Both the position numbers and the translations under genes were made by a program. This document shows positions 18,611 through 42,410 of a stretch of DNA of 42,410 nucleotides, piece after piece. Position 1 is the stretch's first letter. Each line of letters begins with the position of its first letter. A model generated the notes under the pieces. It saw nothing but the letters and a program-made list of their open reading frames with translations. It was not told where the DNA came from and made no database searches. Source of the stretch: Calditrichota bacterium (GTDB taxonomy: Bacteria; Calditrichota; Calditrichia; Calditrichales; J004); the NCBI GenBank assembly GCA_024277115.1, contig JAJRVW010000064.1, positions 1 to 42,410 of the forward strand, written 5' to 3'.

Positions 18611-18699
18611 TATGAAATAATTTTTCATTCTAAGCGGGGGCGCAATCCTTTTTACCTGACCCGGACAAGCCGCACGCTCAAAATGATTTCTAAATCTAA

Positions 18700-20311: not shown

Positions 20312-20339
20312 ACCTGCACAATACTACAGGAGAAAAAAG

Positions 20340-20900: not shown

Positions 20901-20944
20901 TAAACTTGAGGCCTTCAATATTTGAAGCCAAAGATGTTTTGATT

Positions 20945-21433
20945 ATGAAATCATACAGCCGAAGCGAATTTATAAAATTTTTTACGGACCGGGTAAAGGG
21001 GGAGAAAAAGGCCTGTTTGCGACCGCCTTATAATGACAATCCTGAGATATTTGAAAAAGTTTGTCCCAGTTGTGCGGGGCTATGTGCCCGGATTTGCGAA
21101 GAACAAATTATTGAAATAGGCGAAGAAGGTACACCCGTTATTAATCTTAAAAAAGGTGGGTGTACATTCTGCCGGGCATGCCTGGACGTGTGTGAAAAAG
21201 ATGTCCTAAATCTAAAAGAGGATAGATTTATAAAGGCAAAAATCCATCTAAATTTTACAACCTGTTTGGCTTGGAACGAAACGGTGTGCCAGTCTTGTAA
21301 AGAGGCATGTACTTATGATGCTATTTTATTTGATGGCCTAAAAAAACCTAATATTCGGAAAGATGAATGCAACCGGTGTGGGATATGCGTTCCTGTTTGT
21401 CCGGAAGGCTCAATTAATATTTTTCATCTTTAA
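20945..21433 (+). CDS. napF: NapF-type ferredoxin
   Basis: A 162-residue cytoplasmic iron-sulfur protein beginning MKSYSRSEFIKFF. Cysteine groups include CTFCRACLDVC, CQSCKEAC with an upstream Cys, and CNRCGICVPVCP, fitting three [4Fe-4S] clusters. An extra cysteine-rich segment, CPSCAGLCARIC, precedes them. NapF proteins help mature or feed electrons to NapA in the cytoplasm. The frame could start at a TTG at 20906, but the ATG at 20945 gives the usual NapF N-terminus; its ribosome site is weak. It lies 44 bases after napB and before napD. Confidence 0.85.
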   Translation: MKSYSRSEFIKFFTDRVKGEKKACLRPPYNDNPEIFEKVCPSCAGLCARICEEQIIEIGEEGTPVINLKKGGCTFCRACLDVCEKDVLNLKEDRFIKAKIHLNFTTCLAWNETVCQSCKEACTYDAILFDGLKKPNIRKDECNRCGICVPVCPEGSINIFHL

Positions 21434-21476
21434 CCAAGAAATGAGTGAAAAACATGTTTATAATATGGAGTTTACT

Positions 21477-21737
21477 ATGAATATATCAGGTGTAGTTGTG
21501 CGTACAAGGGTAGAAAATGTAAATTGTGTGGCCAAAAAACTAAGCCAAAGCGCCTTGTGTGAAGTACACCAATCCGATCCTTCCGGAAAAATAATCATAA
21601 CCATTGAGGGCAACTCCATAAAAGACGAAACGGAGAAGTTGAAACAAATTCAAGCTATCGCCGGAGTTCTTTCCGCGGATATGGCCTATGCGTATAGTGA
21701 CCATGATTATGTAGGAGATAAAGATTTAAAAAAATAA
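21477..21737 (+). CDS. napD: NapD chaperone
   Basis: An 86-residue small cytoplasmic protein that binds the NapA Tat signal during cofactor insertion. It starts MNISGVVVRTRVEN, the usual NapD first strand, and continues with the ferredoxin-like alternation of strands and helices (SGKIIITIEGNS, then IQAIAGVLSADMAYAYSD). The long frame from 21363 is mostly the alternate reading of napF and is rejected, since GGAG at 21467-21470 sits 6 bases before the ATG at 21477. It is the last gene of the nap set. Confidence 0.88.
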   Translation: MNISGVVVRTRVENVNCVAKKLSQSALCEVHQSDPSGKIIITIEGNSIKDETEKLKQIQAIAGVLSADMAYAYSDHDYVGDKDLKK

Positions 21738-21836
21738 TTTAGCATCTATGATTCCATCTAAAAAGGTAAAAATCCTAGCTCTGCGTGCTTCGGCAGAACC
21801 GGAACCCTATGTCCAATCATATCAATAGGCTCAGAA

Positions 21837-21866
21837 ATAAATTCAGGTTGAAAATCCTGATTTTAT
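21837..21866 (+). terminator. Stem-loop after the nap operon
   Basis: ATAAATTCAGG pairs with CCTGATTTTAT (one mismatch) around an 8-base loop, followed by TT but no long T-tract. It may end the nap transcript. The rest of 21738-22041 contains two weak hairpins, a TCACAA half-site at 21941-21946 and no gene. Confidence 0.4.
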
Positions 21867-22041
21867 TTACCGGGAATGATGCCCCTGCTATTAGTCCTTT
21901 TTAGACTGGATTTATATTTTTGTTTAAAAAGTTATTTATTTCACAAAATATTTACTTATATTAAGACTTGATTGTCCGAATACTTAAAAAGTTTTACTGC
22001 ATATCTATAATAATTCATCAAACAAATCAGGAGGACCTACT

Positions 22042-23496
22042 ATGCAACGTAGGATTTTGTTTATTGGTATATTTATAATGTTTTTATTTAGTAGCAATAT
22101 TATGGCAAATGGAGCTCTTAAAGAATTATCTGATGCCACAAAAGAGTGTATTGATTGCCATAAGGACGAAAATGTAAGCCTTTACCAGCAATGGGGCAGA
22201 AGTAAGCATTTTGGCGCCAATGTTGGCTGTTATGAATGCCATGCGGCAAAAAAGAACGATGCGGATGCTTTTGAACATAATGATTATTCAATTTCAATTA
22301 TTGTATCCCCAAAAGATTGTTCGAGTTGCCATGAAAAAGAAGTGGATGAGTTTGAAAACTCGCATCACTCTAAAGCTGGCCGGATTATGGGTTCTTTAGA
22401 TAATGTTCTGGCAGAGGTTGTAGAAGGAAATAACGGGTTGGTCACCGAGGGATTTCCCGGAGGTGTATCGGCAGCGGCAGTAAATGGCTGCTGGCAATGC
22501 CATGGCAGTGAAGTAAAAGTGCTCGAAGGTGGCCAACTGGATGCCGCCACCTGGCCAAACTCTGGTATAGGCCGCGTAAACCCCGATGGAAGTGAAGGCT
22601 CTTGCAGCGCTTGCCATCAACGGCACGAGTTTTCCGCTGCTCAGGCACGTCGTCCGGAAAATTGTGGGAAATGCCACCTTGGTCCGGACCATCCACAGAA
22701 AGAGATTTATGAAGAATCTAAACATGGTATAAATTTTTATGCCAATGTGGACCGTATGAACCTGGAATCATCAAAATGGATCGTGGGTGAAGATTATGAT
22801 GCTGCGCCAACCTGTGCAACATGCCACATGTCTGCGACGCCAAACCAGGATATTTCCCATAATATTGGGTTACGGATTAAATGGAACAACCGTCCGGTAC
22901 ATTCCAAGCTTTCACATGAAACAGATAAAAAATGGAACTTGTCTTCGGCTAATATTACAGCCGATGAAAGACGCAAAAAGATGGAAGATGTTTGTACAGC
23001 CTGCCATAATCCTAATTTTACAGCAAACTTTTTTGTTCAGTACGAAGGATTAATTGACCTTTATGATCAAAAATTTGCAACACCGGGCGAAAAACTTTAC
23101 AAAGCTGCCCAGCCATTGTTAAAATCGGATGCTGCTGGAAACCGTATTAAATTTAGTGAAAAAATTGATTTTACCTGGTTCGAGCTTTGGCATCACGAAG
23201 GTCGCCGCGCACGCCATGCAGCCTCGATGATGGCGCCGGATTACACGCATTGGCATGGCACCTATGACCTTGCCAAAAATTTTTACTCAGAATATATTCC
23301 GGAGATTGAAGAGGTTATCGAACGTGGTATGCACTCCTCGGATCCCAAAGACCAGGCCGCTGCGAAAAATTTACAAAAAGTGCTTGATGAGGTTTTGAGT
23401 AGTGACAATCATAAATGGAGCCAGGGTAAAATGAGCTCTGAGGAGAAAGAAATGCGTAAAAAACGTGCCAAAGAGTTTAAAGAGCGTTATAAGTAA
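22042..23496 (+). CDS. Octaheme cytochrome c of the hydroxylamine oxidoreductase family
   Basis: A 484-residue secreted protein with a signal peptide (1-22) and exactly eight CxxCH sites at 36, 63, 93, 150, 188, 208, 258 and 318. The spacing and the C-terminal segment MMAPDYTHWHGTYDLAKNFYSEY (397-418) are typical of the HAO family. Members oxidise hydroxylamine or hydrazine, or, in Campylobacterota, are proposed to reduce nitrite. The family's oxidative members need a tyrosine cross-linked to the catalytic heme; several tyrosines lie in 401-418, but which one (if any) matches cannot be settled by eye. It follows the nap operon and precedes a bc complex. AGGAGG precedes the ATG. The best guess is reduction of nitrite or hydroxylamine. 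Confidence 0.88.
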   Translation: MQRRILFIGIFIMFLFSSNIMANGALKELSDATKECIDCHKDENVSLYQQWGRSKHFGANVGCYECHAAKKNDADAFEHNDYSISIIVSPKDCSSCHEKEVDEFENSHHSKAGRIMGSLDNVLAEVVEGNNGLVTEGFPGGVSAAAVNGCWQCHGSEVKVLEGGQLDAATWPNSGIGRVNPDGSEGSCSACHQRHEFSAAQARRPENCGKCHLGPDHPQKEIYEESKHGINFYANVDRMNLESSKWIVGEDYDAAPTCATCHMSATPNQDISHNIGLRIKWNNRPVHSKLSHETDKKWNLSSANITADERRKKMEDVCTACHNPNFTANFFVQYEGLIDLYDQKFATPGEKLYKAAQPLLKSDAAGNRIKFSEKIDFTWFELWHHEGRRARHAASMMAPDYTHWHGTYDLAKNFYSEYIPEIEEVIERGMHSSDPKDQAAAKNLQKVLDEVLSSDNHKWSQGKMSSEEKEMRKKRAKEFKERYK

Positions 23497-23535
23497 CAGC
23501 ATTCTTTTTACCTCAGGATAAAGGTCCAATGATTA

Positions 23536-23569
23536 AAAAGGGTAACAATATACATGTTACCCTTTTTTT
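23536..23569 (+). terminator. Intrinsic terminator after the HAO-like gene
   Basis: AAAAGGGTAACA pairs with TGTTACCCTTTT around ATATACA, followed by a T-tract. It separates the HAO-like gene from the Rieske operon. Confidence 0.88.
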
Positions 23570-23661
23570 GAAACGGTCGGGACCATCGATCTATAGTTGT
23601 AAAAAATCTAAAAAAAAAAATTGTAGACGACATTTAATGGTATTAGTTTAGTTGCAATTAA

Positions 23662-23685
23662 TTTTCAGACAGGTTTATCTGAAAA
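23662..23685 (+). promoter_or_regulatory. Inverted repeat upstream of the Rieske gene
   Basis: A perfect 8-8-8 inverted repeat TTTTCAGA-N8-TCTGAAAA ends 34 bases before the Rieske ATG. It could be an operator or a leader hairpin. No matching regulator family is recognised. Confidence 0.4.
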
Positions 23686-23719
23686 GAAAATAGTTTAATC
23701 ACCAAACAAGGTAATCGTT

Positions 23720-24157
23720 ATGGGAATTAGTCGTAAAAAATTTATTGATTATATTTTGGGCGGCAGTTTGTTAGGCTGGCTGGGAAGCACTTTATATCCG
23801 GTCTTGGCCTATCTTAAACCGCCGAAAGTACCAGAAGTAAATGTTAACTCGGTTAATGCCGGGATGCTCACCGATTTTTCGATCAATAGTAGTAAGATAT
23901 TAAAATTTGGACGCATACCAGTTATTTTAATCCGTAAGGATAGCGGCGAGCTTCGTGCTTTCGAAGCTACGTGTACACATCTAGATTGCATTGTTCAATA
24001 CAAACGAGACGAGAAACAGATCTACTGTGCCTGCCATAACGGACGGTATGATTTACATGGCTTAAATATTTCAGGTCCGCCACCTCGTCCTTTAGTTCAA
24101 TTTGATGTAAATGTTATACGCGATGAAATTGTCGTATCAAAACCGAAACCGGTATAG
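23720..24157 (+). CDS. qcrA: Rieske iron-sulfur protein of a bc-type complex
   Basis: A 145-residue membrane-anchored [2Fe-2S] protein. An N-terminal anchor (residues 9-30) follows SRKKF. The cluster ligands are Cys85 and His87 in CTHLDC, and Cys103 and His106 in CACHNGRYD. Cys90 and Cys105 would form the stabilising disulfide. The canonical CPCH is CACH here. The stop codon is directly followed by the cytochrome b gene. It would take one electron from quinol and pass it to a cytochrome c, most likely the nonaheme protein two genes on. Confidence 0.93.
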   Translation: MGISRKKFIDYILGGSLLGWLGSTLYPVLAYLKPPKVPEVNVNSVNAGMLTDFSINSSKILKFGRIPVILIRKDSGELRAFEATCTHLDCIVQYKRDEKQIYCACHNGRYDLHGLNISGPPPRPLVQFDVNVIRDEIVVSKPKPV

Positions 24158-24166
24158 GTGGCAAAT

Positions 24167-25231
24167 ATGAATTCTAAATTATTTAACTGGATCGATGAGC
24201 GCTTTAATATTTCCCCACTTATCGATTTTATGAAACACAAAGAAGTTCCTGTTCATAAACATAGTATTTGGTATTATATGGGCGGTGTGACTTTGTTTTT
24301 GTTTATTGTACAGGTGCTAACAGGTATCCTTTTATTGCTGTATTATCAACCTGGGGTTGATAGTGCTTATGAAAGTGTACGTTTTTTAATGACAAAAGTA
24401 AACTTTGGTTGGTTGTTCCGCCAGATACATGGCTGGGCTGCAAATATGATGATCTTTTTTATCTTTTTGCACATGTTTAGCGTCTTTTTTACACGGGCAT
24501 ATCAAAAACCGCGTGAACTTACCTGGATAACAGGCATGTTCCTTATGTTTGTTGCAATGGGGGCAGGTTTTAGCGGATATCTTCTTCCCTGGAACGAATT
24601 GGCCTTTTTTGCAACAAAAGTTGGTACGGATATTACAGGCGCTGTCCCGGTTGTTGGCAATATGATGAAGGTATTGCTACGTGGTGGGGAGGATGTAACC
24701 GGTGCCACACTTTCACGTTTTTATGCTTTTCATGTTGCACTAATACCTGCGATAATGACACTGTTGCTTGGTTTGCACCTCACTTTTGTACAAAGACAAG
24801 GCATGCACGAGCCCGATCATTTTAAAAAAGCGCTCAAGAAAAAAGTAATCCCATTTTTTCCAAACTTTATTTTACGTGACGCTCTTTTGTGGTTAATCGT
24901 GATAAATATTTTACTCTATTTAGCTGTTTTCTTCCCTTGGGAACTCGGTCTTAAAGCAGATGCTTTTGCTCCGGCACCGGATGGCATAAAACCCGAATGG
25001 TATTTTATGTTTATGTTCCAGACCCTAAAATATATCCCGGCTCATGTTTGGTTTATAGAGGGTGAAGTTTTAGGTGTTTTAGGTTTTGGTTTAATTGCCC
25101 TTATTTGGGTGTTGGTACCTTTTTGGGAAATCAAAATAAAGCCGGGTACTAAATTTCGCCCAATGAATGTTATTGGTGCAATTGGGGTTATTTACATAAT
25201 CGTTTTAACCGTCGTCGGTTATATGGTATAA
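24167..25231 (+). CDS. qcrB: Cytochrome b (b/b6 type) of a quinol:cytochrome c oxidoreductase
   Basis: An inner-membrane diheme protein of 354 residues that oxidises quinol. The heme-ligand pairs are His88/His102 and His189/His204 (13 and 14 residues between, the 14-residue gap being b6-like). The quinol-site motif PEWY is near 276-279. It joins the b6 part with a shortened C-terminal part, as in many anaerobic complexes. AGGTGG at 24156-24161 sits 5 bases before the ATG at 24167. A GTG at 24158, directly after the Rieske stop, is an alternative start three residues longer. Confidence 0.93.
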   Translation: MNSKLFNWIDERFNISPLIDFMKHKEVPVHKHSIWYYMGGVTLFLFIVQVLTGILLLLYYQPGVDSAYESVRFLMTKVNFGWLFRQIHGWAANMMIFFIFLHMFSVFFTRAYQKPRELTWITGMFLMFVAMGAGFSGYLLPWNELAFFATKVGTDITGAVPVVGNMMKVLLRGGEDVTGATLSRFYAFHVALIPAIMTLLLGLHLTFVQRQGMHEPDHFKKALKKKVIPFFPNFILRDALLWLIVINILLYLAVFFPWELGLKADAFAPAPDGIKPEWYFMFMFQTLKYIPAHVWFIEGEVLGVLGFGLIALIWVLVPFWEIKIKPGTKFRPMNVIGAIGVIYIIVLTVVGYMV

Positions 25232-25244
25232 AGGTGGGCTTATA

Positions 25245-26576
25245 ATGAATGAAAAATATTTAAATAATACTTCGGTTTTGATTAGTTCTATTTTTACTCT
25301 TCTTTTACTGGTGAGTTTCGGTTTTGCAGAAGAGGCTATGGATAGTGACAAACAAGACTCCACGGGTGTGACAAATGAGTTTTCTAACCTTCCAAAAGAT
25401 GATACCTGTATTTCCTGCCATATTGAGGAGGAAGAGATGCCGGAAGGGTTTAATGAAAATGATATCCACATGCAAGCGGGGCTATCATGCGTAGGTTGCC
25501 ATGGTGGTGATAATACGATCGACGATGAAGATGAAGCGATGGATGAAGAAAATGGTTTTGTCGGAGTACCAGATCGTGAAGAAATTCCGGCATTATGTGG
25601 TAAGTGTCATTCCAGTATCGAATTTATGCGTGATTATCAGCCACGTATCGCCACAGATCAGGTGGAGCAATATTATACAAGTATACATGGCGAAAAATTT
25701 AAACAAGGTGATGAAAACGTGGCTACCTGTATAAGCTGCCACTCGTCTCATGGTATTATGCCTGCAACGGATCCGCGTTCGACAGTATATGCCTTAAGCG
25801 TGCCGGGTACCTGTAAATCCTGCCATAGTGATAAAGATTATATGGCCGATTATAATATCCCGACAGATCAATATGAAAAATATGCAGCAAGTGTGCATGG
25901 CGAAGCTTTACTCGACCGCGAAGACACGGGGGCCCCTGCATGTAACGATTGCCATGGAAATCATGGTACTACACCTCCAGGTGTTGCTTCACTGGCCCAT
26001 GTGTGTGGCTCGTGCCATGTCCAAAACGAAGAATATTTTTCCCAAACGCAGATGGCTAAGGAATTTGCCGAAGATGAAATGCATGCCTGTTTGGAATGCC
26101 ATGGGAACCACGCGGTTGCAAAACCAACGGATGATATGGTCGGGATTGGTGAAGATGCCATCTGCATGGAATGCCATGATGTGGATGAAGATGGTTATTT
26201 TGCGGCAGACTCAATCCATATAATGTTAACCCAGATTACAGCGGCTTATGATTCTGCTCTTTCCAAGCTGGAAGAGGTAAAAATTATTGGTATGGATGAT
26301 GTGGAAATAGGATTTTTATTGCAGGATGCCCATCAAGACATAATCCACTCCCGTACACTGGTGCACACTTTTGATCCGCAACGTGTTAAGGAAAAAGCAG
26401 ATGTTGCCCTTAAAAATTCACGGGATGCCATAAAACTTGGGATTAAAGAACTTGATGATTATGATACCCGAAGAATGGGCTTAGGTGTGGCGACATTGTT
26501 TATCACGGTTTTAGCCATCGCCTTGTTTTTTAAGATTCGTTATATTGAAGAGGAACAAGAAAAAAATAAGTTATAA
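25245..26576 (+). CDS. Nonaheme cytochrome c with C-terminal membrane anchor
   Basis: A 443-residue periplasmic multiheme protein with an N-terminal signal peptide (about 1-28), nine CxxCH sites at 55, 82, 118, 162, 190, 233, 254, 282 and 307, a helical stretch (330-408) and a single C-terminal membrane helix (412-430) ending in a charged tail. It starts 13 bases after the cytochrome b stop. It takes the place that cytochrome c1 has in bc1 operons, so it is probably the electron outlet of this complex. The alternating CxxCH-GNH pattern (HGNHGTT, HGNHAVA) resembles NrfB/doubled-CXXCH cytochromes. It is unlikely to be catalytic, since no CxxCK or other unusual heme site is present. Confidence 0.88.
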   Translation: MNEKYLNNTSVLISSIFTLLLLVSFGFAEEAMDSDKQDSTGVTNEFSNLPKDDTCISCHIEEEEMPEGFNENDIHMQAGLSCVGCHGGDNTIDDEDEAMDEENGFVGVPDREEIPALCGKCHSSIEFMRDYQPRIATDQVEQYYTSIHGEKFKQGDENVATCISCHSSHGIMPATDPRSTVYALSVPGTCKSCHSDKDYMADYNIPTDQYEKYAASVHGEALLDREDTGAPACNDCHGNHGTTPPGVASLAHVCGSCHVQNEEYFSQTQMAKEFAEDEMHACLECHGNHAVAKPTDDMVGIGEDAICMECHDVDEDGYFAADSIHIMLTQITAAYDSALSKLEEVKIIGMDDVEIGFLLQDAHQDIIHSRTLVHTFDPQRVKEKADVALKNSRDAIKLGIKELDDYDTRRMGLGVATLFITVLAIALFFKIRYIEEEQEKNKL

Positions 26577-30290: not shown

Positions 30291-32366
30291 TCAAAAGTTG
30301 CCAAAATCGTGATCATCCAAATTGATAACAGGATCCAGCTCATTTTTAAACGAGGCAACAGTAGCGGCATTGTTTGATCTTCTTAAATTCCTGGTTGCAG
30401 GTTTGGGGCTTGGTTCGGGATTGTTTTTACTCTTTGTACGATTGCCCACATTGCCCGAGTATTCGGGAAGTAGTTTAAAATGTGCAATGAGTTTTTTTAA
30501 GTGTAACGATTGGTTACGTAATTCACCAGAGGATGCCGCGCCCTCTTCTGCACGGGTTGTGCTTGCTTGAATTATGTTTTCGACCTGTTCCAGACTACCG
30601 TTTATTTGATCAATCGCATTGGCCTGTTCTTGAGATGCATTGGCCATCCCACCTATTAAATTGGTTACTTCGTTAATTTGGTGCACAATTTCGCTTAATG
30701 CAGTCGAGGTACTGTTGGCAATCGTCGATCCATTTTGAACGCGTTGAATAGAATTTTCGATTAAAGTTGTGGTTTCATGGGCTGCCTTGGCACTGCGTTG
30801 AGCTAAATTTCTTACTTCTTCGGCAACAACGGCAAAGCCTTTGCCATGTACGCCGGCACGCGCAGCTTCCACAGCGGCGTTTAATGCCAGTAAATTTGTT
30901 TGGAAGGCAATTTCATCGATGGTTTTAATAATCTTGGAGATTTGGCTGGACGACTCGTTTATTGAGCCCATAGCATCGAGCATTTCGTTCATTTGGACTG
31001 TTCCGTTGTTGGCCAGGGCCAGGGTCTTTAGGCTTAAGTTGTTTACATCCGAAGCGTTTTTTACACTTTGGTTTGTTTGTGAAGACAGTTCGTTCATAGA
31101 AGCGGCAATTTCTTCCAGTGAGCTCGCCTGTGTAGAAGCGTCTTCTGAAAAGTGTAAATTGTTTTCGCTAATATGCTCGGAACTTTGCTTAACCCTTTCA
31201 GATGAGTTTGCTACTTCTGAGAGGATTTTATTAAGGGCAATGATAGTCGAGTTCAACGAGTTTTTTATTATGGAATAATCACCTTTATAATCACCATTCA
31301 TTTTTACATTCAAGTTGCCGGCGGAAATTTGTTTTAAAATATTTACGGATTCTTTAATGGGCTTTAAAATATTATCTAAAGTAAAATTAAACCCTGTGAT
31401 AATGGTTCTATAATCTCCCGAGAATTTATTTACATCACCCCGTGCCGACAAATCACCATTTTGGGCTGCGGTAGCAATTTCATCACTTTCGTCAATAAGC
31501 ATTTTCAGGTTTTTATGGATTCTATTAATTGCATCGGATAATACTTTTTGCTCACCGGGCAACTCCCTGATTTGATTGCTGAGGTCGCCATCGGCATATA
31601 GTTTTATTATTTCCACGCCTTCTTGTAGATTTTGCATTTCTAATTCAGATTTGGAAACGGCTTCCTCAATGCGTTTTTCTACGCCAGCTTTCTCCTCCTC
31701 CAGATTTTTCATTAACATGGAAATATTTGATACCATCTTATTGAAACTATCGGTTAGTTCGCCAACCTCGTCATCCGAACATTTAATGGCCTTTTGTTTT
31801 AAATCGCCATTGCCAACTTTATGGGCCATGTCGCGCAGGGCAATTACAGGTTGGCTAATACTTCGGGCCAACTTAGTCACCGAAACCGATCCGATAAGAA
31901 CCATTATAAATCCAACTAAAAAGGCTGTGAGGCGTGTTGTCCAAATCTCGGATTGTATACTTTCTGTAGATTTTGAAATTAGGATATAACCATTAAGCAT
32001 TTCTGTTTCTACAGGGGCTTTAGCAATAATACGGTCTGAAGACGACGCGATATTTATATCCACTTCATAGCCAGCTGGAAAGGTTGCAAAGGGTTCACCA
32101 TCACTTATGAGGCTGACAAACTCAAGGTCGGGATCGTCTTTCACAAACTCGATTGCTTTTTGAACGCCCGAAAGTTCACCACTGCTTAGGCCAATATTTA
32201 CGCCTAATGCGACCGACTCAGCTGTAGAAACAACTTCTTTCTGATAGCTCTCTTCAAGCAAAGTAGCTTGCCGGTATGGAAAAAAGAATATCATGAATAG
32301 GCTAAAAGCCAAAATCAGACCAATTATTGGTACCCGAATTTTATTTAATAAATTTAAAGATTGCAT
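30291..32366 (-). CDS. Methyl-accepting chemotaxis protein
   Basis: A 691-residue inner-membrane receptor. TM1 is about 12-30, a small periplasmic sensor region 31-145, TM2 about 146-167, then a HAMP domain (about 168-220, with [15 protein letters not shown]). Further HAMP-like repeats run to about 350. The cytoplasmic signalling hairpin is intact ([20 protein letters not shown], then [17 protein letters not shown]). The C-terminus ends DDHDFGNF. The periplasmic domain is about 115 residues, single and not of a recognised ligand family. It is convergent with the porin/PstS-like pair. No other che or flagellar genes are in the window. Confidence 0.93.
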
Positions 32367-33806: not shown

Positions 33807-33822
33807 TGGCATATTAGTTGAA
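33807..33822 (+). promoter_or_regulatory. Possible sigma-54 promoter for the DUF5666 gene
   Basis: TGGCAT-ATTAG-TTGAA resembles the sigma-54 -24/-12 pattern TGGCAC-N5-TTGCA with two differences, including the usually important C of the -12 GC. It ends 40 bases before the ATG. Confidence 0.3.
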
Positions 33823-33862
33823 TAAGTGGCGACTGACAAAACAATTAAATGGAGGATTTATC

Positions 33863-35887
33863 ATGTTTCAAGCTACACATTCAAATTTACACAGAAAAGT
33901 TTTACTTTTCTTTATATCCGTTTTTCTATTCACTATTGGCCAGGTTATGGCTGATGATTCTCACTTTGAGACAAAAGGGGCCATTCAGTCCATCGGTGAT
34001 GACAGTCTGGTTGTAAATGGTTTTATCTTTGACGTAAATGACAGCACAATGGTTAAGGATGATTCCCTTGGCCATATTTCTTATTCCGATCTTATGGCTG
34101 GCGATTATGTAAAGGTAGAAGGATATGAGCAGGGTGTTGGGCGCTATTATGCCAAAAAGATTGAGCGCGAGTCCAAATCTGATGATGATGACCATGGCGA
34201 TGATCATGGGGATGACCGCGAGTTGGAAACAAAAGGATCGATTTCTGCCCTGGGGGATAGTACAGTTACTGTAAACGGTTATACATTTTCGGTTACGAGC
34301 GCAACAAGAATAAAAGCAGGACATAACCGGGTTTTTAGTTTTGAAGACTTGCAGGTGGGAAATAATGTAGAAGTAGAAGGTTATTGGCAGGCAGATTCTG
34401 CATTAATCGCCAAAAAAATAGAATTGCGCGAACATGAAGACGAGGATGGCGATGATGTGGAATTTAGCGGGGTTATCGATTCTGTTCTTAGTAATGCAAT
34501 TGCACTAAACAACCGTATAATTGAAGTAAACGACAGCACTTTAATTGAATTGCGCCATGATGTTATCGGTAGTTTTAGTGATTTGCAGGCCGGCATGTTT
34601 GTTGAAGTCAAAGCAATCGTGTTTGACAGCGCTTTGGTTGCCGTGCGTATTAAGGTTGAAAATGATGATGAAAAAGAGATGGAAATTACCGGTAGTATCG
34701 ATTCTGTCGGCGTGGATTTTATTGAGCTGCTCGGCTATCATGTTATTATTGACGACCGTACCGAAATTAAAAATTATTCGCGTGATTCGTTAACGATTGC
34801 AGATTTGGAAAAAGGATTACGGGTTAAAGTAAAAGGAAGTCGGATCGCCGATAAAACAATCCGAGCACGCCGTATTAAAATTAAGCGTTTTTATGATCAG
34901 GAGCTGGAATTTACGGGCGCGATAACCATGCTTAGTGGTTCCCAAATTCAGGTTGAGCAAACGATATTCTTTACCGATAGCCTGACAATTATCCTCGATG
35001 CGAATAAAATCCCACTTAGTTTTGACCAGCTTGCTGTTGGGCAGATAGTTGAGGTAAAAGGGGTAAAAAGGGCCGATGGAAATTTATGGGCCTTACGCAT
35101 AAAAATTGAAGACCGTAATAGAAACGGGATTGAGTTTACAGGTATTATTGAGAAATTATCAACAGATTCAATCAGTGTAAACAGCTTTACATTTTTTGTT
35201 GACAGCCTCACAAATGTTTTTGATTTGCAAGGAAACCCGATTGCTTTTACTGATTTAGTTGTCGGTGATTTGGTAGAAATAAAAGGAGAAATGCAATTAG
35301 ATGGCAGCTTGAGGGCAGTAAAAATTAAGCTGGAAAACACACCGGGAACAATTGTTGTTTCGGGTACGATTACATCGTTGAGTAATGACAAGATTTGGAT
35401 CGACGGGCCGCAATACCAACTTACCGGATCATCTGTTATCCTCGATAAAAATTATAATGTAATTGATATAAGCCAATATAAAACCGGCGATGCAATCACC
35501 TTGTGGGCAGAAGACAGTAATGGAAACATCACTGTGTTGCAAACGAAACTTGGTACAAATTCGGTTACCGGATTAAACTTAGCAGGCGGGCAAAAAATCC
35601 CTGAGCTGTTTGAATTGAATGCAAATTATCCGAACCCCTTTAACCCGGAAACAACCATAGCCTTTAATGTAAACTTTGCAGGTTTCCGCAATGCAAGTCT
35701 GTTAGTTTTTGACATCACCGGGCGTAAGGTGCGCACCTTGTTTAGTGGACTACTTAATGCCGGGCGTTACAGCTTTAAGTGGGATGGAAAGAACGACCTT
35801 GGCAACAGTGTGGCGAGCGGGCTTTATATTTATCGCCTTTCCACGGGCACGGTTGCTATAAGTAAAAAAATGACACTAATACGATAG
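33863..35887 (+). CDS. Secreted protein with seven DUF5666 repeats and a C-terminal sorting domain
   Basis: A 674-residue exported protein: signal peptide (about 12-31), then seven tandem repeats of about 65-75 residues with the pattern xFTGxIxSLxxDxIxVNGxxFxV...FxDLxVGDxVEVKG...A.RIKIE, as in DUF5666. Between repeats 1 and 2 is an acidic/histidine spacer (SDDDDHGDDHGDD). The C-terminal ~90 residues start NYPNPFNPETTIAF and end in YRLSTGTVAISKKMTLIR, a FlgD-like/type IX-style sorting domain, so it is probably surface-attached or released. GGAGG at 33851-33855 fits the ATG at 33863; the frame from 33818 is too early. Function is unknown; metal or polymer binding at the surface is possible. Confidence 0.85.
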   Translation: MFQATHSNLHRKVLLFFISVFLFTIGQVMADDSHFETKGAIQSIGDDSLVVNGFIFDVNDSTMVKDDSLGHISYSDLMAGDYVKVEGYEQGVGRYYAKKIERESKSDDDDHGDDHGDDRELETKGSISALGDSTVTVNGYTFSVTSATRIKAGHNRVFSFEDLQVGNNVEVEGYWQADSALIAKKIELREHEDEDGDDVEFSGVIDSVLSNAIALNNRIIEVNDSTLIELRHDVIGSFSDLQAGMFVEVKAIVFDSALVAVRIKVENDDEKEMEITGSIDSVGVDFIELLGYHVIIDDRTEIKNYSRDSLTIADLEKGLRVKVKGSRIADKTIRARRIKIKRFYDQELEFTGAITMLSGSQIQVEQTIFFTDSLTIILDANKIPLSFDQLAVGQIVEVKGVKRADGNLWALRIKIEDRNRNGIEFTGIIEKLSTDSISVNSFTFFVDSLTNVFDLQGNPIAFTDLVVGDLVEIKGEMQLDGSLRAVKIKLENTPGTIVVSGTITSLSNDKIWIDGPQYQLTGSSVILDKNYNVIDISQYKTGDAITLWAEDSNGNITVLQTKLGTNSVTGLNLAGGQKIPELFELNANYPNPFNPETTIAFNVNFAGFRNASLLVFDITGRKVRTLFSGLLNAGRYSFKWDGKNDLGNSVASGLYIYRLSTGTVAISKKMTLIR

Positions 35888-35904: not shown

Positions 35905-35960
35905 AACCCCCGGCATTGCTTGACTCCCAAAATTCCTTCCTTAATGCCGGGGTTCTTTTA
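35905..35960 (+). terminator. Long-loop terminator after the DUF5666 gene
   Basis: CCCCGGCATT (35908-35917) pairs with AATGCCGGGG (35943-35952) around a 25-base loop, followed by TTCTTTTA. It lies between the DUF5666 stop and the thioredoxin ribosome site. Confidence 0.65.
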
Positions 35961-35973
35961 TGGGGGAAATGAA

Positions 35974-36351
35974 ATGATCAATAAGATTTTGACGAAAAAA
36001 ATGGTACTGGTTTATATTTGGACGGAACAGTGCGCTAGCTGTACAAAGATGACGCCCATCGTTGAAGAAGTGGCAAAGGAAAACAGTAAGGATATTCAGT
36101 TAATAAAACTTTCTGCTGAGAGTAATTTAGAACTTATTAAAAAGTACAAGGTGACTTATTTACCAACAACACTAATTTTTCGGCATGGAGTTTTGATCGA
36201 ACGCCGGGCGGGCAGGCGTAGCAGACAGGTTTTGTCAAAAAAAATCCAAATGATAAAATCATTTTCTGAAGAAGATGCAAAAAATAATGAGTTGTGTGGC
36301 GTGACATTGAGTAAGCTTAGCAGAAACCAGTACAGTTCGTTATGGATGTAA
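35974..36351 (+). CDS. Thioredoxin-family protein with CASC active site
   Basis: A 125-residue thioredoxin fold. The active site is WTEQCASCTKM (Cys20, Cys23), unusual compared with CGPC, and the cis-proline is in TYLPTTLIF (Pro64). No signal peptide is present. The C-terminal tail SFSEEDAKNNELCG matches the tail of the thioredoxin at 11234-11623. GGGGGA at 35962-35967 fits the ATG at 35974; the frame from 35920 runs through a terminator hairpin and is rejected. It may serve cysteine reduction for heme attachment or another redox client, but there is no evidence of its partner. Confidence 0.82.
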   Translation: MINKILTKKMVLVYIWTEQCASCTKMTPIVEEVAKENSKDIQLIKLSAESNLELIKKYKVTYLPTTLIFRHGVLIERRAGRRSRQVLSKKIQMIKSFSEEDAKNNELCGVTLSKLSRNQYSSLWM

Positions 36352-36376
36352 GTGAATAAAAAAAAATTTAAATTAT

Positions 36377-36419
36377 CAGAGAAAGCCAATTCTTTTTTTA
36401 AGGGAATTGGCTTTCTCTG
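36377..36419 (+). terminator. 16-bp perfect stem-loop after the thioredoxin gene
   Basis: CAGAGAAAGCCAATTC (36377-36392) pairs perfectly with GAATTGGCTTTCTCTG (36404-36419). The T-run is in the 11-base loop, not after the stem, so it is an atypical terminator or an RNA-protective hairpin. Confidence 0.55.
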
Positions 36420-36547
36420 GTATTAGCCATAGTTAATAAACTGCATTTTTAGTCCATTCTTTACTGTATCAGTAGTTCCCCTCCCATTTCGATTATCTTG
36501 TAGGTTTATAGATTATTTTCTATATTCTTTACAGGAAGGATCAATAC

Positions 36548-36621: not shown

Positions 36622-37602
36622 ATGCGCATATCACTAATTTTTAGAATAATGATTTTTCTACTCACATTGAACCTGTCGTCAATCGCTCAGGATGTTATTT
36701 GGGTAGGCCAATTCTCATCATCAAAAGATTTCGCCTCTGCCGATAAATTTTCCCAAAAGGTAATCGATTTTATTTTTGGGGATACAGAAAACCGATTAAT
36801 GCGGCCAGTTGCATTAGTTGCCAATGATACCACAACGTTTTGGATTCTCGACCAGGGGGCAAAATCACTATTAAAAATCGATAAAAATAAAAACGAGTTT
36901 CAAATCATCGAAAATCAGGACCCTTCTTTGTTCCCTTCTTTGTTCCCTTCTTTGGTCGCCATTGCTAAAGGCCCACATGATAAATTCTATTTTACCGATT
37001 CTCAACTAAACAAAATTTTTATCTTTGGCACACAATCCACATTAATTAAAGTATTAAACGATTCGTTAATTTTGGATCAACCCACCGGAATTGCATATTC
37101 TGCCGGAGAAAACGAGTTATGGGTATCTGAGACTCGTAAGCACCGGCTTGTTATTATGGACGAGACAGGAAAGATAAAAAAAACAATAGGAAAGCGTGGT
37201 AAGGAACCCGGAGAGTTTAATTTCCCCACACTAATATGGATTGATAAAAATGGCATGGTTTTTGTGGTTGATGCTATGAATTTCCGAGTTCAGGTTCTTG
37301 ACCGGTTTGGGAATACAATCTCTGTTTTTGGGCAGGCGGGTGATGGTAGCGGGAATTTTGCCAGCCCCAAAGGAATTGCTGTTGACTCAAAGGGAAATAT
37401 ATTTGTTGTTGATGCGCTTTTTCATACAGTCCAGGTATTTGATATGGAAGGAAATTATTTATCAAGATTTGGTGTACAGGGTAGAAAGGAATCTGAGTTT
37501 TGGATGCCAACAGGTATATATATAGATGAAAATGATTATATTTATGTTAGTGATAGCTATAATAACAGGATCCAGATATTTAAAGTGATAAATGGGAATT
37601 AA
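36622..37602 (+). CDS. Secreted NHL-repeat beta-propeller protein
   Basis: A 326-residue protein with signal peptide (ending SSIAQ, about residue 22) and about six NHL repeats, e.g. KHRLVIMDETGKIKKTIGKRG and DALFHTVQVFDMEGNYLSRFG. These repeats form a beta-propeller for binding proteins or ligands. A 12-base unit is repeated three times at 36921-36956 and encodes PSLFPSLFPSL in a loop. It is followed immediately by a multiheme cytochrome gene, and such NHL-cytochrome pairs are common in metal-reducing bacteria, where the propeller is thought to help place or bind the cytochrome. There is no catalytic motif. Confidence 0.85.
   Translation: MRISLIFRIMIFLLTLNLSSIAQDVIWVGQFSSSKDFASADKFSQKVIDFIFGDTENRLMRPVALVANDTTTFWILDQGAKSLLKIDKNKNEFQIIENQDPSLFPSLFPSLVAIAKGPHDKFYFTDSQLNKIFIFGTQSTLIKVLNDSLILDQPTGIAYSAGENELWVSETRKHRLVIMDETGKIKKTIGKRGKEPGEFNFPTLIWIDKNGMVFVVDAMNFRVQVLDRFGNTISVFGQAGDGSGNFASPKGIAVDSKGNIFVVDALFHTVQVFDMEGNYLSRFGVQGRKESEFWMPTGIYIDENDYIYVSDSYNNRIQIFKVINGN
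36921..36956 (+). repeat. Three tandem copies of a 12-bp unit inside the NHL gene
   Basis: CCCTTCTTTGTT twice and CCCTTCTTTGGT once, in frame, giving repeated FPSL residues. A likely slippage product. Confidence 0.7.
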
Positions 37603-37603
37603 T

Positions 37604-39277
37604 ATGAAGATGTATTTAATCCGTAGAGTTGTTTTTTTCCTTGTGCCTGTTTTATTATCCGGGCAATCTATCTTAAATACAGTCCATAACCTCTCTGTTG
37701 ATGGGCCCGGGACAACTAAAGCCGTTACCGAGACAGAAGTTTGCATTTTTTGCCATGCCCCACATAATAGCAATCCCCAAACCCCATTATGGAACAAACA
37801 AACACCTGCTACAAACTATATCTTGTATAATAGCTCTACTATCCAGGCAAGCCCGGGCCAACCAGATGGTTCTTCTATATTGTGTCTTTCGTGCCATGAT
37901 GGGACCATTGCTTTAGGAAGTGTTTTGAACAGAGTGGAGCCCATCCAGTTTGGTGGAGGGGTAACAACTATGCCAGCCGGATCGTCAAATTTATCAACCC
38001 AACTTTCAGACGACCATCCTGTTTCATTTATTTATAACAGTTCATTAGCAATTGCAGATGGTGAATTAGTTGATCCGGTAGGGTTAAACGGGCCTGTTCA
38101 GCTTAGTAACCAAAAAGTACAATGCTCCTCGTGCCATGATGCGCATTCGGATTTGAACGATAAGTTTTTAGTGGCATCCAATCGGTATTCTGATCTTTGT
38201 CTTTTCTGTCATCAAAAACCTTTTTGGGACCAATCCAGTCATAGTACGTCAAATGCAGGTTGGAGTGGTAACGGAACAGACCCCTGGCCGCACACGCCTT
38301 TTAATACCGTAGCGGAAAATGCTTGCGAAAATTGCCATATGCCGCATAATGCTGGTAGCAATGAAAGGCTCCTAAATTCTGCTACCGAAGAAACAAATTG
38401 TATTATCTGCCATGACACGAATGTTGCGTCGGTTGACATCCAGTCTGAAATAAGCAAGCCATATAGCCATGACGTATATGCTTATAGCCAAGTGCATGAT
38501 ACGAATGAATCCACGCAGGTACAGGCAATGCATGTCGAATGTTCGGATTGTCATAATCCACATGCCAGCAATAATTCAACGGCAACAGCGCCAGCTGCAA
38601 ATGGGTTCTTAAGTGGGGTCAGAGGGATTGATACCAATGGCAACCCCGTAAGTGTTGCTCAGAACGAGTATGAAGTATGTTATCGTTGCCATGCCGGTAG
38701 TTCCGGCAGTGCAGGAAGCCCAACTTCCCGTCAATTTGATCAAAACAATACACGGCTGGAGTTTGACCTGAATAATACATCATATCATCCAATAGAGGGA
38801 GTTGGTCAAAATGGAAATGTTCCCAGTCTTATTTCCCCGCTTACCGAATCGAGTATAATCTATTGTACCGATTGCCATGCGAGTGATGCGGTCAATGCAG
38901 CTATGGGGCCTCATGGTTCAATATATCCACAAATTTTAAAATACCGCTATGAAACTGTGGATAATACAAAAGAATCCTATCAGGTGTACAGGTTGTGTTA
39001 TGAGTGCCATGATCGAAATTCACTTTTGTTTAGCATGAGTAAGGTAAGTAAAAAGGTACATAAAGAACATGTGGTGGGCGAAGATATCCCCTGTAATATT
39101 TGCCATGACCCGCATGGGATAAGCGCTAGCCAGGGCAACCAGACCAGTTTAATAAATTTTGACCTATCTGTGGTTTCGCCTTATCAAAACAGGTTGGAGT
39201 TTATAGATAGAGGGAATTCTAGCGGCGAGTGTTATCTTGTTTGTCATGGCGAGACCCATAAACCCAAAAAGTATTGA
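37604..39277 (+). CDS. Multiheme cytochrome c, 11 CxxCH plus one CxxxCH
   Basis: A 557-residue secreted protein with signal peptide MKMYLIRRVVFFLVPVLLSGQS. Counted from this ATG the CxxCH sites are at about 47, 94, 174, 199, 241, 266, 313, 359, 421, 465 and 497. A twelfth site CYLVCH (543-548) has three residues between the cysteines. Doubled CXXCH-type motifs with PHN/DPH suffixes (CHAPHN, CHMPHN, CHNPH, CHDPHG) are typical of outer-surface cytochromes of metal reducers. The ATG at 37604 is one base after the NHL stop; GGGA at 37594-37597 fits it. An ATG at 37592 is a possible earlier start. It probably functions in long-range electron transfer outside the inner membrane. Confidence 0.85.
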   Translation: MKMYLIRRVVFFLVPVLLSGQSILNTVHNLSVDGPGTTKAVTETEVCIFCHAPHNSNPQTPLWNKQTPATNYILYNSSTIQASPGQPDGSSILCLSCHDGTIALGSVLNRVEPIQFGGGVTTMPAGSSNLSTQLSDDHPVSFIYNSSLAIADGELVDPVGLNGPVQLSNQKVQCSSCHDAHSDLNDKFLVASNRYSDLCLFCHQKPFWDQSSHSTSNAGWSGNGTDPWPHTPFNTVAENACENCHMPHNAGSNERLLNSATEETNCIICHDTNVASVDIQSEISKPYSHDVYAYSQVHDTNESTQVQAMHVECSDCHNPHASNNSTATAPAANGFLSGVRGIDTNGNPVSVAQNEYEVCYRCHAGSSGSAGSPTSRQFDQNNTRLEFDLNNTSYHPIEGVGQNGNVPSLISPLTESSIIYCTDCHASDAVNAAMGPHGSIYPQILKYRYETVDNTKESYQVYRLCYECHDRNSLLFSMSKVSKKVHKEHVVGEDIPCNICHDPHGISASQGNQTSLINFDLSVVSPYQNRLEFIDRGNSSGECYLVCHGETHKPKKY

Positions 39278-39292
39278 GTTTAAAATAACAAA

Positions 39293-40750
39293 ATGATAAA
39301 GTCATTTCGCTCAAAAGTAATTATTTCAATTTCTGTTGTGGTAATCTTGGCATCATACTGCGGCCTTTTTATATTCGAAACAATACTGCATAAAAAGAAC
39401 CAGGAAAACTCGATTGAAGATATTAAAATGAGTCTTGAGTTTTTTCAGGAATCTTATGTATATGAATTGGGCAAACATGGTGAAGAAAGCTTGGTGCCTG
39501 TCCTTATGCACCTTAGTTATAACCACTCTGTGAGTAATGTTGTTTTATTAAACAGTGTTGGTCAGCCTTTGTTTATTGCGGACACATCAAAACCAAAGAT
39601 CAGTTATCAAATTATAATTGATGAAATCACTCAAAATGATGGATCAATCCTTCTCCAAACAAACGGTGTGTCCAACCGTGCAATTTTGGCTTTAGAGAAT
39701 AAAGAATCTTGTAACTCCTGTCATAATTCGTCAGGAAAAAATCTGGGTTATATTGTTGTTGATTTTTTTATGCACGATCTTGATGAAGCAGGCCATCTTA
39801 TAGATATGTTTGGGTTATACTTCGCACTTTCATTGCTCTCATTGATATTTATTATCGTGATAATGTTGCATTTTAGGTTTGTAAGAGGGTCATTAAAACA
39901 ATTTAAAATTGCTACTCAAAAAATAAAAGATGGTAACCTTGAAATACGCGTGCCCATTTTAGTGGCCGATGAACTTGGTACACTTGCTACAAGTTTCAAT
40001 GATATGTTAGATAATGTTCAGAATATGCAAAAACAAATTTCCGGATTTCATGAACGGGAAATGAAAAACGCACAAAAAATGGCCACTGTTGGTGAAATGG
40101 CGGCAATTGTTGCCCATGAAATAAAGAACCCTTTAACAGGTATCTCCAATGCGATAGAAATCCTGGTTGACGAGATGCCCGAATCTTCCTCAAAAATGGG
40201 GATAATGAAAGAAATACACCGCCAAGTTTCCAGGGTAAATAAAACTATTAATACGCTGTTAAAGTTTTCACGGCCCATTGATATGCAAATGGAACAAGGC
40301 GATATAAATGAATTAATTCTTTCTGTCGTCTTTTTTCTGGAGAAGCAGACAGAAAAAGGCGTTGTTGAGTTTCGTACAAGTTTATCAAAAAACATTCCAA
40401 TATTTAATTTTGACCATGAGCAAATGGAAGCAGTTTTTACAAACCTTGGGCAAAATGCACTCCATGCTTTGACAGAAAAAGGCGTTATTGAGTTTATTAC
40501 GGAATATGATTATGAAAAAGATACTTTGATAATAAAAGTAAAAGATACGGGGTCAGGAATTTCTGAGGAGGATATGAAGAAAGTTTTTAAACCATTTTAC
40601 ACAACACGTAGTAAAGGAACAGGCCTTGGCCTTTCGATTGCAAATGACATTATAGAACAGCACGGTGGGCATATTATGATTAAGAGTCAAATAGGCCAAG
40701 GTACCACAATGATAATAAGCTTGCCCATTCAGAACTCTTTTGTAGATTGA
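39293..40750 (+). CDS. Membrane sensor histidine kinase with a periplasmic CxxCH heme site
   Basis: A 485-residue kinase: TM1 (about 8-30), periplasmic sensor domain (31-170), TM2 (173-195), HAMP (about 196-250), HisKA with VAHEIKNPLTG (His275), and HATPase with NALHAL, DTGSGIS and GTGLGLSI. Inside the sensor domain is ENKESCNSCHNSSGKNLGYIVVD: a CxxCH heme c site at 140-144 just before TM2. Covalent heme on a sensor domain suggests redox, NO or oxygen sensing in the periplasm. It starts 15 bases after the multiheme cytochrome stop and is followed by its sigma-54 response regulator, so it probably senses the state of the cytochrome chain. The start has a weak ribosome site. Confidence 0.9.
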   Translation: MIKSFRSKVIISISVVVILASYCGLFIFETILHKKNQENSIEDIKMSLEFFQESYVYELGKHGEESLVPVLMHLSYNHSVSNVVLLNSVGQPLFIADTSKPKISYQIIIDEITQNDGSILLQTNGVSNRAILALENKESCNSCHNSSGKNLGYIVVDFFMHDLDEAGHLIDMFGLYFALSLLSLIFIIVIMLHFRFVRGSLKQFKIATQKIKDGNLEIRVPILVADELGTLATSFNDMLDNVQNMQKQISGFHEREMKNAQKMATVGEMAAIVAHEIKNPLTGISNAIEILVDEMPESSSKMGIMKEIHRQVSRVNKTINTLLKFSRPIDMQMEQGDINELILSVVFFLEKQTEKGVVEFRTSLSKNIPIFNFDHEQMEAVFTNLGQNALHALTEKGVIEFITEYDYEKDTLIIKVKDTGSGISEEDMKKVFKPFYTTRSKGTGLGLSIANDIIEQHGGHIMIKSQIGQGTTMIISLPIQNSFVD

Positions 40751-40796: not shown

Positions 40797-42170
40797 ATGC
40801 GAAAATTAAAAATCTTAATTATTGACGATGAAAAGTTAATAGGCTGGACTTTTCAACAGAAACTAAGTAAAAAAGGATATGAAGTTTTAACAACCGATTC
40901 TGCTGAAGAAGGACTAGAGCTTTTTCAACGGGAGGACCCGGATATTGTTTTTTTGGATAATAAGCTTCCTAAAATGCAAGGGTTAGAGCTTTTACCAAAA
41001 CTAACAAGTTTAAATAAAGAAGCGGTACTTGTTTTTATGACGGCATATGGGTCTATCGACACAGCCATTAAAGCAATAAAATACGGGGCGTATGATTATA
41101 TTGCCAAGCCGTTTAACTTTAACGAGATTGATGCTGTCCTTGGCAAGATAAAAGAAAAAATATCGACAGGAAACGAGCTTAAAATCCTTAGAAGCAACCA
41201 GCCCGTAAAGATTGGTTTTAGTAATATAATCAGCCAATCTAAAAGTATGAAGGATATAATTGATCTTGCAAAAAAAATATGTACTTCCGATGCATGTTCT
41301 GTTTTATTAATGGGCGAAAGCGGTACAGGTAAGGATTTAATCGCAAAGGCGATACACAATGAAAGCAATCGTAAAGATAAGCCATTTGTTACAATTAATT
41401 GCTCCTCACTCCCGGAAACACTTTTAGAGAGCGAACTATTTGGCCATGAGCGTGGTGCTTTTACAGATGCACACAAGCAGAAAAAAGGACTATTTGAAAT
41501 TGCTGACCAGGGTACAGTTTTTTTGGATGAGATTGGCGAGGCCAGCTTAAGTGTACAAGTTAAGTTGCTCAACATAATTGAAAACCGGGTATTTAGGCGA
41601 ATAGGCAATACAAAAGACATAAATGTTGATATTAGGATTATTGCCGCTACAAATCAGGATATAGCATCATTAATAAAAACGAAGAGATTCCGTTATGACC
41701 TTTATTATCGTTTAAAAGTCTTTCAAATTGATATTCCCCCCTTGCGCGAACGTAAAGAAGACATTCCGCAGCTTATAAAATATTTTATAAATTATTTTAA
41801 TAAAACCCTGCGTAAAAATATTTTAGGCGTTACAAAAGAGGCTGAAGAATTGCTGTGTATGTACGATTGGCCTGGAAATGTCCGGGAGTTACGAAATATT
41901 ATTGAACATGCTATTATACTAGAAACCAACGAAACAGTCCAAAAAGAGCACCTTCCTATTGAAATAAAAGAAACAGAAGCGCCAATTGCCATTGGTGCAG
42001 TTGATAAATGGTTTGATATTCCCAATGAGGGTTTTTCCCTATATGACGTCGAGAAAGCGATTATTAAACAGACTCTTTACAAGGCTGGCAATAACCAAAC
42101 TTTAACAGCCAAGCTAATGAATGTGAGCCGGGATACCTTACGCTATAAAATGAAGAAATATAATCTTTGA
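40797..42170 (+). CDS. NtrC-family sigma-54-dependent response regulator
   Basis: A 457-residue activator with receiver (phospho-acceptor Asp54, Lys104), AAA+ ATPase (Walker A GESGTGKD at 173-180, Walker B VFLDEIGE at 241-248) and a C-terminal Fis-type helix-turn-helix (about 428-457; TLTAKLMNVSRDTLRYKMKK). The sigma-54 contact loop reads GAFTDA (220-225) where the consensus is GAFTGA. AGAGG precedes the ATG. It is the cognate regulator of the heme kinase 46 bases upstream. Its target promoters would be of -24/-12 type; a candidate with three palindromic sites is just downstream. Confidence 0.94.
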   Translation: MRKLKILIIDDEKLIGWTFQQKLSKKGYEVLTTDSAEEGLELFQREDPDIVFLDNKLPKMQGLELLPKLTSLNKEAVLVFMTAYGSIDTAIKAIKYGAYDYIAKPFNFNEIDAVLGKIKEKISTGNELKILRSNQPVKIGFSNIISQSKSMKDIIDLAKKICTSDACSVLLMGESGTGKDLIAKAIHNESNRKDKPFVTINCSSLPETLLESELFGHERGAFTDAHKQKKGLFEIADQGTVFLDEIGEASLSVQVKLLNIIENRVFRRIGNTKDINVDIRIIAATNQDIASLIKTKRFRYDLYYRLKVFQIDIPPLRERKEDIPQLIKYFINYFNKTLRKNILGVTKEAEELLCMYDWPGNVRELRNIIEHAIILETNETVQKEHLPIEIKETEAPIAIGAVDKWFDIPNEGFSLYDVEKAIIKQTLYKAGNNQTLTAKLMNVSRDTLRYKMKKYNL

Positions 42171-42172
42171 AA

Positions 42173-42238
42173 TTGGGTGATTACACCCAGCTATTTGGGT
42201 TATATCACCCTGTGAATTGGGTTATATCACCCAAGTGT
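42173..42238 (+). promoter_or_regulatory. Three palindromic sites with exact 22-bp period
   Basis: GGGTGATTACACCC (42175-42188), GGGTTATATCACCC (42197-42210) and GGGTTATATCACCC (42219-42232), each preceded by TT, form three near-palindromes at exactly 22-bp spacing (about two helical turns, so all on one face). They begin right after the regulator stop codon, and are probably binding sites of that NtrC-type protein or another dimeric regulator. Confidence 0.65.
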
Positions 42239-42326
42239 TTTTGGGGCCAGGAAACAAGTTGTTCCCCTGAAAAAAATAACCCCAAATAGCAGCTTTTGCA
42301 TCGATTTGTTAAAAACTTCACAAGTT

Positions 42327-42342
42327 CGGCACGGTAGTTGTA
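42327..42342 (+). promoter_or_regulatory. Sigma-54-like promoter
   Basis: CGGCACG-GTAG-TTGTA matches TGGCACG-N4-TTGCA at all but two named bases. It is 95-150 bases after the palindrome array, the usual distance from enhancer to promoter. The controlled gene would start beyond the window. Confidence 0.45.
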
Positions 42343-42410
42343 GTCCTTTAAAGTACTTTTAAAAATGAATTAATATTGACCATAAATTAACTAAGTACTC
42401 ATATTTAATC

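Follow-up and report, generated by a model that had tools for sequence, protein, structure and literature searches.

Sensor domains with a covalently bound c-type heme, and histidine kinases built on them, are already known, and the closest described relatives of the kinase considered here are GSU0935 and GSU0582 of Geobacter sulfurreducens (PDB entries 3b42 and 3b47; Pfam family PF21563), whose type of Cache domain is described in a 2021 review as a carrier of covalent heme c (PMC8396549). A 2026 preprint names the family sCache_heme, likewise describes covalent heme c, and places both Geobacter proteins inside it (PMC12889525). The preprint counts kinase-fused proteins among the members (DUF3365/Tll0287, PF11845), in which a Cache fold, a covalent c-heme motif and a signalling output are combined as they are at our locus, and as far as consulted it gives no target genes for them. 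Two-component proteins with c-heme motifs are also listed for Geobacter (GSU0283, GSU0303, GSU0356, GSU0599, GSU1302, GSU2314, GSU2816 and GSU2916; PMC8396549); these carry one or two such motifs in an electroactive bacterium, a likeness that we draw from their description alone, and a target operon for them was not found in the literature searched. Indeed, c-heme sensor kinases are widespread and their signals and targets largely unknown, and within the same literature neither signal nor target has been assigned to any of them.

The window analysed here, 42,410 nucleotides in length, corresponds to contig C255 in its entirety, and the draft genome to which this contig belongs measures 4.97 Mb and comes from the phylum Calditrichota (Table 1). 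Its sensor kinase has 485 amino acids and a single CxxCH (CNSCH), and the only cysteine outside this motif is C23, within the first transmembrane segment (TM1). Hydropathy places TM1 at about residues 9-30 and TM2 at about 172-194, leaving a sensor loop between them, and because these segments flank the motif, the CNSCH, some 28 residues ahead of TM2, is predicted to be periplasmic. In this respect both sequence and hydropathy agree with an earlier note on this DNA, which had reported one periplasmic CxxCH just before TM2. HAMP (197-243), HisKA (267-327) and HATPase_c (374-480) domains follow by Pfam. GSU0935 and GSU0582 likewise possess a single Cache/PAS-like domain between two transmembrane segments, with the CxxCH on a short helix near the C-terminal end of the domain and a HAMP domain thereafter, yet they are chemotaxis receptors, whereas the window protein is a kinase.

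Table 1 Positions in the window of the sensor cassette, its candidate control elements and the contig overlap
Feature	Position	Strand	Remarks
NHL-repeat beta-propeller protein, N-terminal signal-like segment	36622-37602	+	Pfam NHL 1.6e-23; first gene of the sensor operon
Multiheme c-type cytochrome, ~12 hemes	37592-39277	+	PF09699 3.8e-31; 11 CxxCH and one C-terminal CX3CH
Sensor histidine kinase	39293-40750	+	TM1, periplasmic c-heme Cache sensor domain (predicted), TM2, HAMP, HisKA, HATPase_c
CNSCH, putative heme-attachment motif (residues 140-144)	39710-39724	+	Invariant in 17/17 aligned relatives
NtrC-family response regulator	40797-42170	+	Receiver, sigma-54 AAA+ (GAFTDA loop), Fis-type HTH (Pfam)
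Dyad 1 GGGTGATTACACCC, putative regulator-binding site	42175-42188	+	
Dyad 2 GGGTTATATCACCC, putative regulator-binding site	42197-42210	+	22 bp after dyad 1; perfect GGGTNATATNACCC match
Dyad 3 GGGTTATATCACCC, putative regulator-binding site	42219-42232	+	22 bp after dyad 2; perfect GGGTNATATNACCC match
Sigma-54-type -24/-12 element CGGCACGGTAGTTGTAG	42327-42343	+	GG begins 12 bp before GT
141 bp identical to the first bases of contig C187 (locus L045)	42270-42410		Operon continues there

We aligned 17 sensor domains, comprising ten orthologues (group A, window protein included) and seven paralogous kinases (group B, one of them from contig C22 of the same genome), and found the CxxCH, N136 and G90 to be invariant among them. 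A search of the PDB with the profile of this alignment ranked 3b42 (E 1.3e-8) and 3b47 (E 2.2e-5) first, the CxxCH columns of the profile and of both structures coinciding; the profile was needed for this result, as the window sensor sequence alone gave a chance match only. An AlphaFold2 model of the sensor (mean pLDDT 79.5) shows its elements in the order typical of Cache domains, with the CxxCH on a short helix (138-142) and the last strand (150-159) after it, and Foldseek searches with the model returned 3b47 and 3b42 at the top, WalK next, and the sensor domains of CitA and DctB more weakly. The rmsd of the model to 3b47 and 3b42 is high, which we read as fitting the known domain swap of those structures. 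The PF21563 cut-off was passed by one orthologue and two paralogues, with the window kinase below it (17.7 versus 27 bits), and in a further difference from the sCache_heme family the window kinase gave no match to PF11845, for which one paralogue scored 15.1 bits against a cut-off of 24.1. A general scan of genome contigs recovered distant kinases only, none of them with a CxxCH. The comparison with Geobacter c-heme sensors that the earlier note had suggested is thus answered by homology in the profile and by the fold of the model, which support placing the sensor domain with the covalent c-heme Cache sensors GSU0935 and GSU0582.

Conservation of the motif was further assessed with a query consisting of the regulator only, run over 40 genomes of the phylum. 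This recovered ten genomes, the same ten as the kinase had, and in all ten a CxxCH kinase adjoins the regulator; because the query contained no kinase sequence, the conservation is not an artefact of the search. Loss of the cysteines in close homologues, which the earlier note had named as a reason to doubt its proposal, was encountered neither in the alignment nor among the regulator-anchored kinases. An alternative role for the CxxCH as a disulfide or metal site, or its occurrence by chance, appears extremely improbable, given that heme c is seen in crystals of homologous domains whose motif occupies the equivalent position (3b42, 3b47; PMC8396549), that the motif does not vary among the relatives, and that c-type maturation genes are present in the genome, where a CcmF-type heme lyase occurs at two loci. 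A chance origin was rejected separately, since besides being invariant in relatives the motif arose in only 1 of 20,000 shuffles of the kinase protein. Judged from these comparisons, it is very probable that the kinase bears a covalent heme on the outer side of the cell membrane.

The kinase and its orthologues depart from the Geobacter sensors at the distal side of the predicted heme. In GSU0935 the heme ligands are Met60 and His144 (PMC8396549), and the sixth-ligand column that corresponds to Met60 holds Met in all seven group B sequences, whereas the window kinase has Leu59 there and the ten group A sequences vary (L/P/V/L/M/L/L/I/M/M). Group A has instead an aromatic residue at position 57 and Arg129, each in ten of ten. 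On the basis of the alignment, group A has probably lost a fixed distal Met, leaving a heme site that would be open or differently ligated. Two consequences follow: as the axial Met is not conserved in group A, the redox-linked Met switch of Geobacter is not simply transferable, and the probable loss of the distal Met leaves room for gas binding. The kinase might accordingly be chiefly a sensor of NO, lacking a firm distal ligand, binding NO and not O2, and reporting nitrogen-oxide stress or nitrate respiration. Besides the poor conservation of the Met60 equivalent in this clade, such a role would fit the preprint, in which a signalling-fused sCache_heme protein of P. azotoformans without an axial Cys bound NO, released it slowly and did not hold O2 (PMC12889525), and NO is also bound by GSU0582 and GSU0935 (PMC8396549). 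We return to this possibility below, once the genes that the kinase would control have been described.

The kinase belongs to a compact cassette, in which genes for the NHL protein, the multiheme cytochrome, the kinase and the regulator are contiguous in nine other genomes, wherever the contig reaches. The earlier note had placed a 12-heme cytochrome directly upstream of the kinase; the adjacency stands (a 15-bp gap, replaced by a small overlap in some relatives), and the number stands only if the terminal CX3CH (CYLVCH, conserved in orthologues) is counted, the CxxCH motifs alone numbering 11. Orthologues of this cytochrome beside the kinase are 55-64% identical, and those of the regulator in the nine other genomes 55-65%. 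The regulator gene after the kinase is, as the earlier note had it, that of a sigma-54 activator, whose GAFTDA loop, a variant of the GAFTGA type, is common to eight of the ten orthologues. The H-box of the kinase and the receiver Asp motifs of the regulator are both present, and phosphotransfer between the two proteins would be expected.

Given that the kinase and 12-heme genes are adjacent in every locus seen, the heme could conceivably be a structural or electron-accepting site, with the 12-heme cytochrome reporting directly to the kinase through protein-protein sensing. We regard this as improbable, however, as paralogous c-heme kinases adjoin other genes, without this 12-heme cytochrome (L041).

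Three 14-bp dyads at exact 22-bp steps lie directly 3' of the regulator gene, and beyond them is a sigma-54-type promoter, GGCAC-N5-TTGTA, about 95 bp ahead of the ATG of a tetraheme cytochrome gene. The usual -12 element of sigma-54 promoters is TTGC; here it is TTGT, with GT in place of GC. A strict sigma-54 scan demanding GC at -12 consequently missed this promoter, which was revealed by comparison of the intergenic regions, and rpoN is present in the genome. We compared dyads and promoter over nine loci, window included (L037 was excluded, its sequence stopping at the regulator). GGG-N8-CCC-type dyads, usually two, occur just 3' of the regulator gene in all eight relatives that reach this region, and so does a GGCAY-N5-TTGT element of the same spacing, located 56-98 bp ahead of the ATG of the tetraheme gene; the dyads of L036 are imperfect (GGGTGAAATGCCCC) and lie under the symmetry cut of the search. 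Across the 4.97 Mb genome, zero-mismatch occurrences of GGGTNATATNACCC are found at 42197 and 42219 only. Moreover, the combined dyad and promoter pattern was recovered at the cassette in seven of the ten cassette genomes and at one other site (in G028) among the 40 genomes searched, numbers in which presence at the cassettes is given by construction, the dyad pattern having been derived from these loci, and the informative parts are conservation between loci and absence elsewhere. A reversed control of the combined pattern gave zero matches in the 40 genomes.

The window ends 240 bp past the regulator, inside the promoter region of the predicted target, which is why the target escaped the earlier note. 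From the exact overlap that would join C255 to C187, the tetraheme ATG would be base 42423 of the window, and the operon on C187 comprises genes for the tetraheme cytochrome, an NHL protein, a pentaheme cytochrome, an outer-membrane barrel and a 13/14-heme cytochrome. In the relatives, one or sometimes two tetraheme cytochrome genes lie downstream of the regulator gene, together with genes for an NHL protein, a pentaheme cytochrome, a ~650-aa protein and a 13-heme cytochrome that ends in CX3CH. Since dyads and promoter are conserved ahead of this operon, and the perfect dyads are unique in the genome, the kinase-regulator pair very likely controls it, one operon of electron-conduit-like composition. 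The proposal of the earlier note that the kinase adjusts cytochrome production thereby gains strong support from DNA sequence, the conserved dyads and the sigma-54-type promoter standing ahead of multiheme and barrel genes.

Pfam gave no match for the ~650-aa protein, whose structural model (pLDDT 86) consists of a signal helix and some 29 amphipathic strands. The Foldseek matches listed for this model are mostly TonB-type and SusCD barrels with low TM-scores, and point to generic outer-membrane barrels and not to MtrB specifically. In MtrCAB of Shewanella and the ExtABCD and OmcB clusters of Geobacter, multiheme cytochromes are likewise encoded along with a small multiheme protein and a large barrel of the outer membrane. 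The C187 operon differs from these in including NHL proteins, in its apparently local control by a c-heme kinase and sigma-54 regulator, and in a barrel for which neither Pfam nor Foldseek points to an MtrB-specific match. In the window genome an apparent frameshift close to a run of T at about 4340 divides the barrel gene (L045:2677-4682, on C187 of G000), which is intact in relatives; the frameshift may be either an assembly error or a real mutation. The cytochromes at 37592-39277 and L045:4696-5985 both end in a conserved CX3CH, which suggests 12 and 14 hemes, respectively, if this motif is used.

We consider it likely that a heme Cache kinase, an NtrC-type regulator, the dyads and the sigma-54 promoter together govern the conduit-like operon, with a change at the heme, mainly one of redox state, as the signal. 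The periplasmic region would be a single Cache domain with one covalent c-type heme (GSU0935/GSU0582 type, sCache_heme), and the change would most likely be in redox state, set by the balance of periplasmic cytochromes and electron acceptors, or possibly NO binding. From the heme the signal would pass through TM2 and HAMP to kinase activity, the kinase would phosphorylate the adjoining NtrC-type regulator, and the phosphorylated regulator would bind the GGG-N8-CCC dyads 3' of its own gene (three here, usually two) and switch on the sigma-54 promoter some 95 bp before the tetraheme start codon. This promoter would drive the genes for the tetraheme cytochrome, the second NHL protein, the pentaheme cytochrome, the large outer-membrane beta-barrel and the 13/14-heme cytochrome, whose products would form an apparent conduit carrying electrons across the outer membrane.

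With the target in view, a role chiefly in NO sensing seems rather unlikely. A Nap/octaheme nitrate-reduction cluster shares the contig with the kinase, yet the Nap genes lie more than 10 kb away in a separate operon, the predicted target operon consists of cytochromes and a barrel with no NO reductase or recognised NO-detoxification gene, and two cassette genomes, G010 and G032, have no NapA-grade match. The earlier note had offered redox state and a diatomic gas side by side as signals; of these, redox or electron balance is favoured over NO because the target is a set of electron-transfer genes and because those two cassette genomes do without such a match. NapA-type matches of at least 235 bits occur in 8 of the 10 cassette genomes versus 10 of the 30 others, a comparison that ignores kinship and in which most matches are below the NapA cut-off; for both reasons we place no reliance on a link between cassette and nitrate respiration. 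Returning to the redox-based circuit, we put forward more tentatively its most specific form, in which a heme Cache kinase with an open distal site reads the periplasmic electron balance and, through a sigma-54 enhancer system, commands a dedicated outer-membrane conduit from one promoter.

As far as the literature searched extends, which took in few subscription papers, what is new here is a kinase clade that lacks the axial Met and is connected with a single dedicated promoter and with a defined multiheme and outer-membrane operon. The sensor and its regulator, the probable sites of binding, the promoter and the predicted target operon all lie in one conserved cassette, and because the whole circuit is visible there, a single promoter can be used to ask which signal a c-heme kinase responds to. 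The cassette offers a near-complete circuit by which a bacterium may adjust its electron-transfer machinery, and a concrete lead on the regulation of multiheme conduits beyond Geobacter and Shewanella; if the proposal is true, direct readout by a heme governs extracellular electron transfer.

Several further features of this genome deserve mention. A second c-heme-type sensor kinase (L041:7749-9224, on C22 of G000) has the motif CQECH, keeps Met at the axial position, possesses its own sigma-54 regulator and adjoins genes for 4-, 6- and 11-heme cytochromes. The nitrate-reduction cluster of the window (15836-26576) encodes NapA (an NCBIfam equivalog match at 1430 bits), NapG, a NapH-like protein, NapB and a NapF-like protein, together with an octaheme cytochrome of the hydroxylamine-oxidoreductase kind, a Rieske protein, cytochrome b and a 9-heme cytochrome, in an order near to the layout of Caldithrix abyssi and differing from it by the presence of NapB. 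Between this cluster and the kinase cassette, a chemotaxis receptor with several HAMP-type domains and no CxxCH is encoded on the minus strand (30291-32366). Further along are genes for a secreted protein that has six DUF5666 repeats and, at its C-terminus, a FlgD-like domain (33818-35887) and for a thioredoxin-like protein (35920-36351) that resembles another at 11234-11623 on the minus strand. A strong inverted repeat, AGAGAAAGCCAATTC...GAATTGGCTTTCTCT, at 36372-36420, between the thioredoxin-like and NHL genes, is likely a terminator that parts the sensor operon from the genes upstream.
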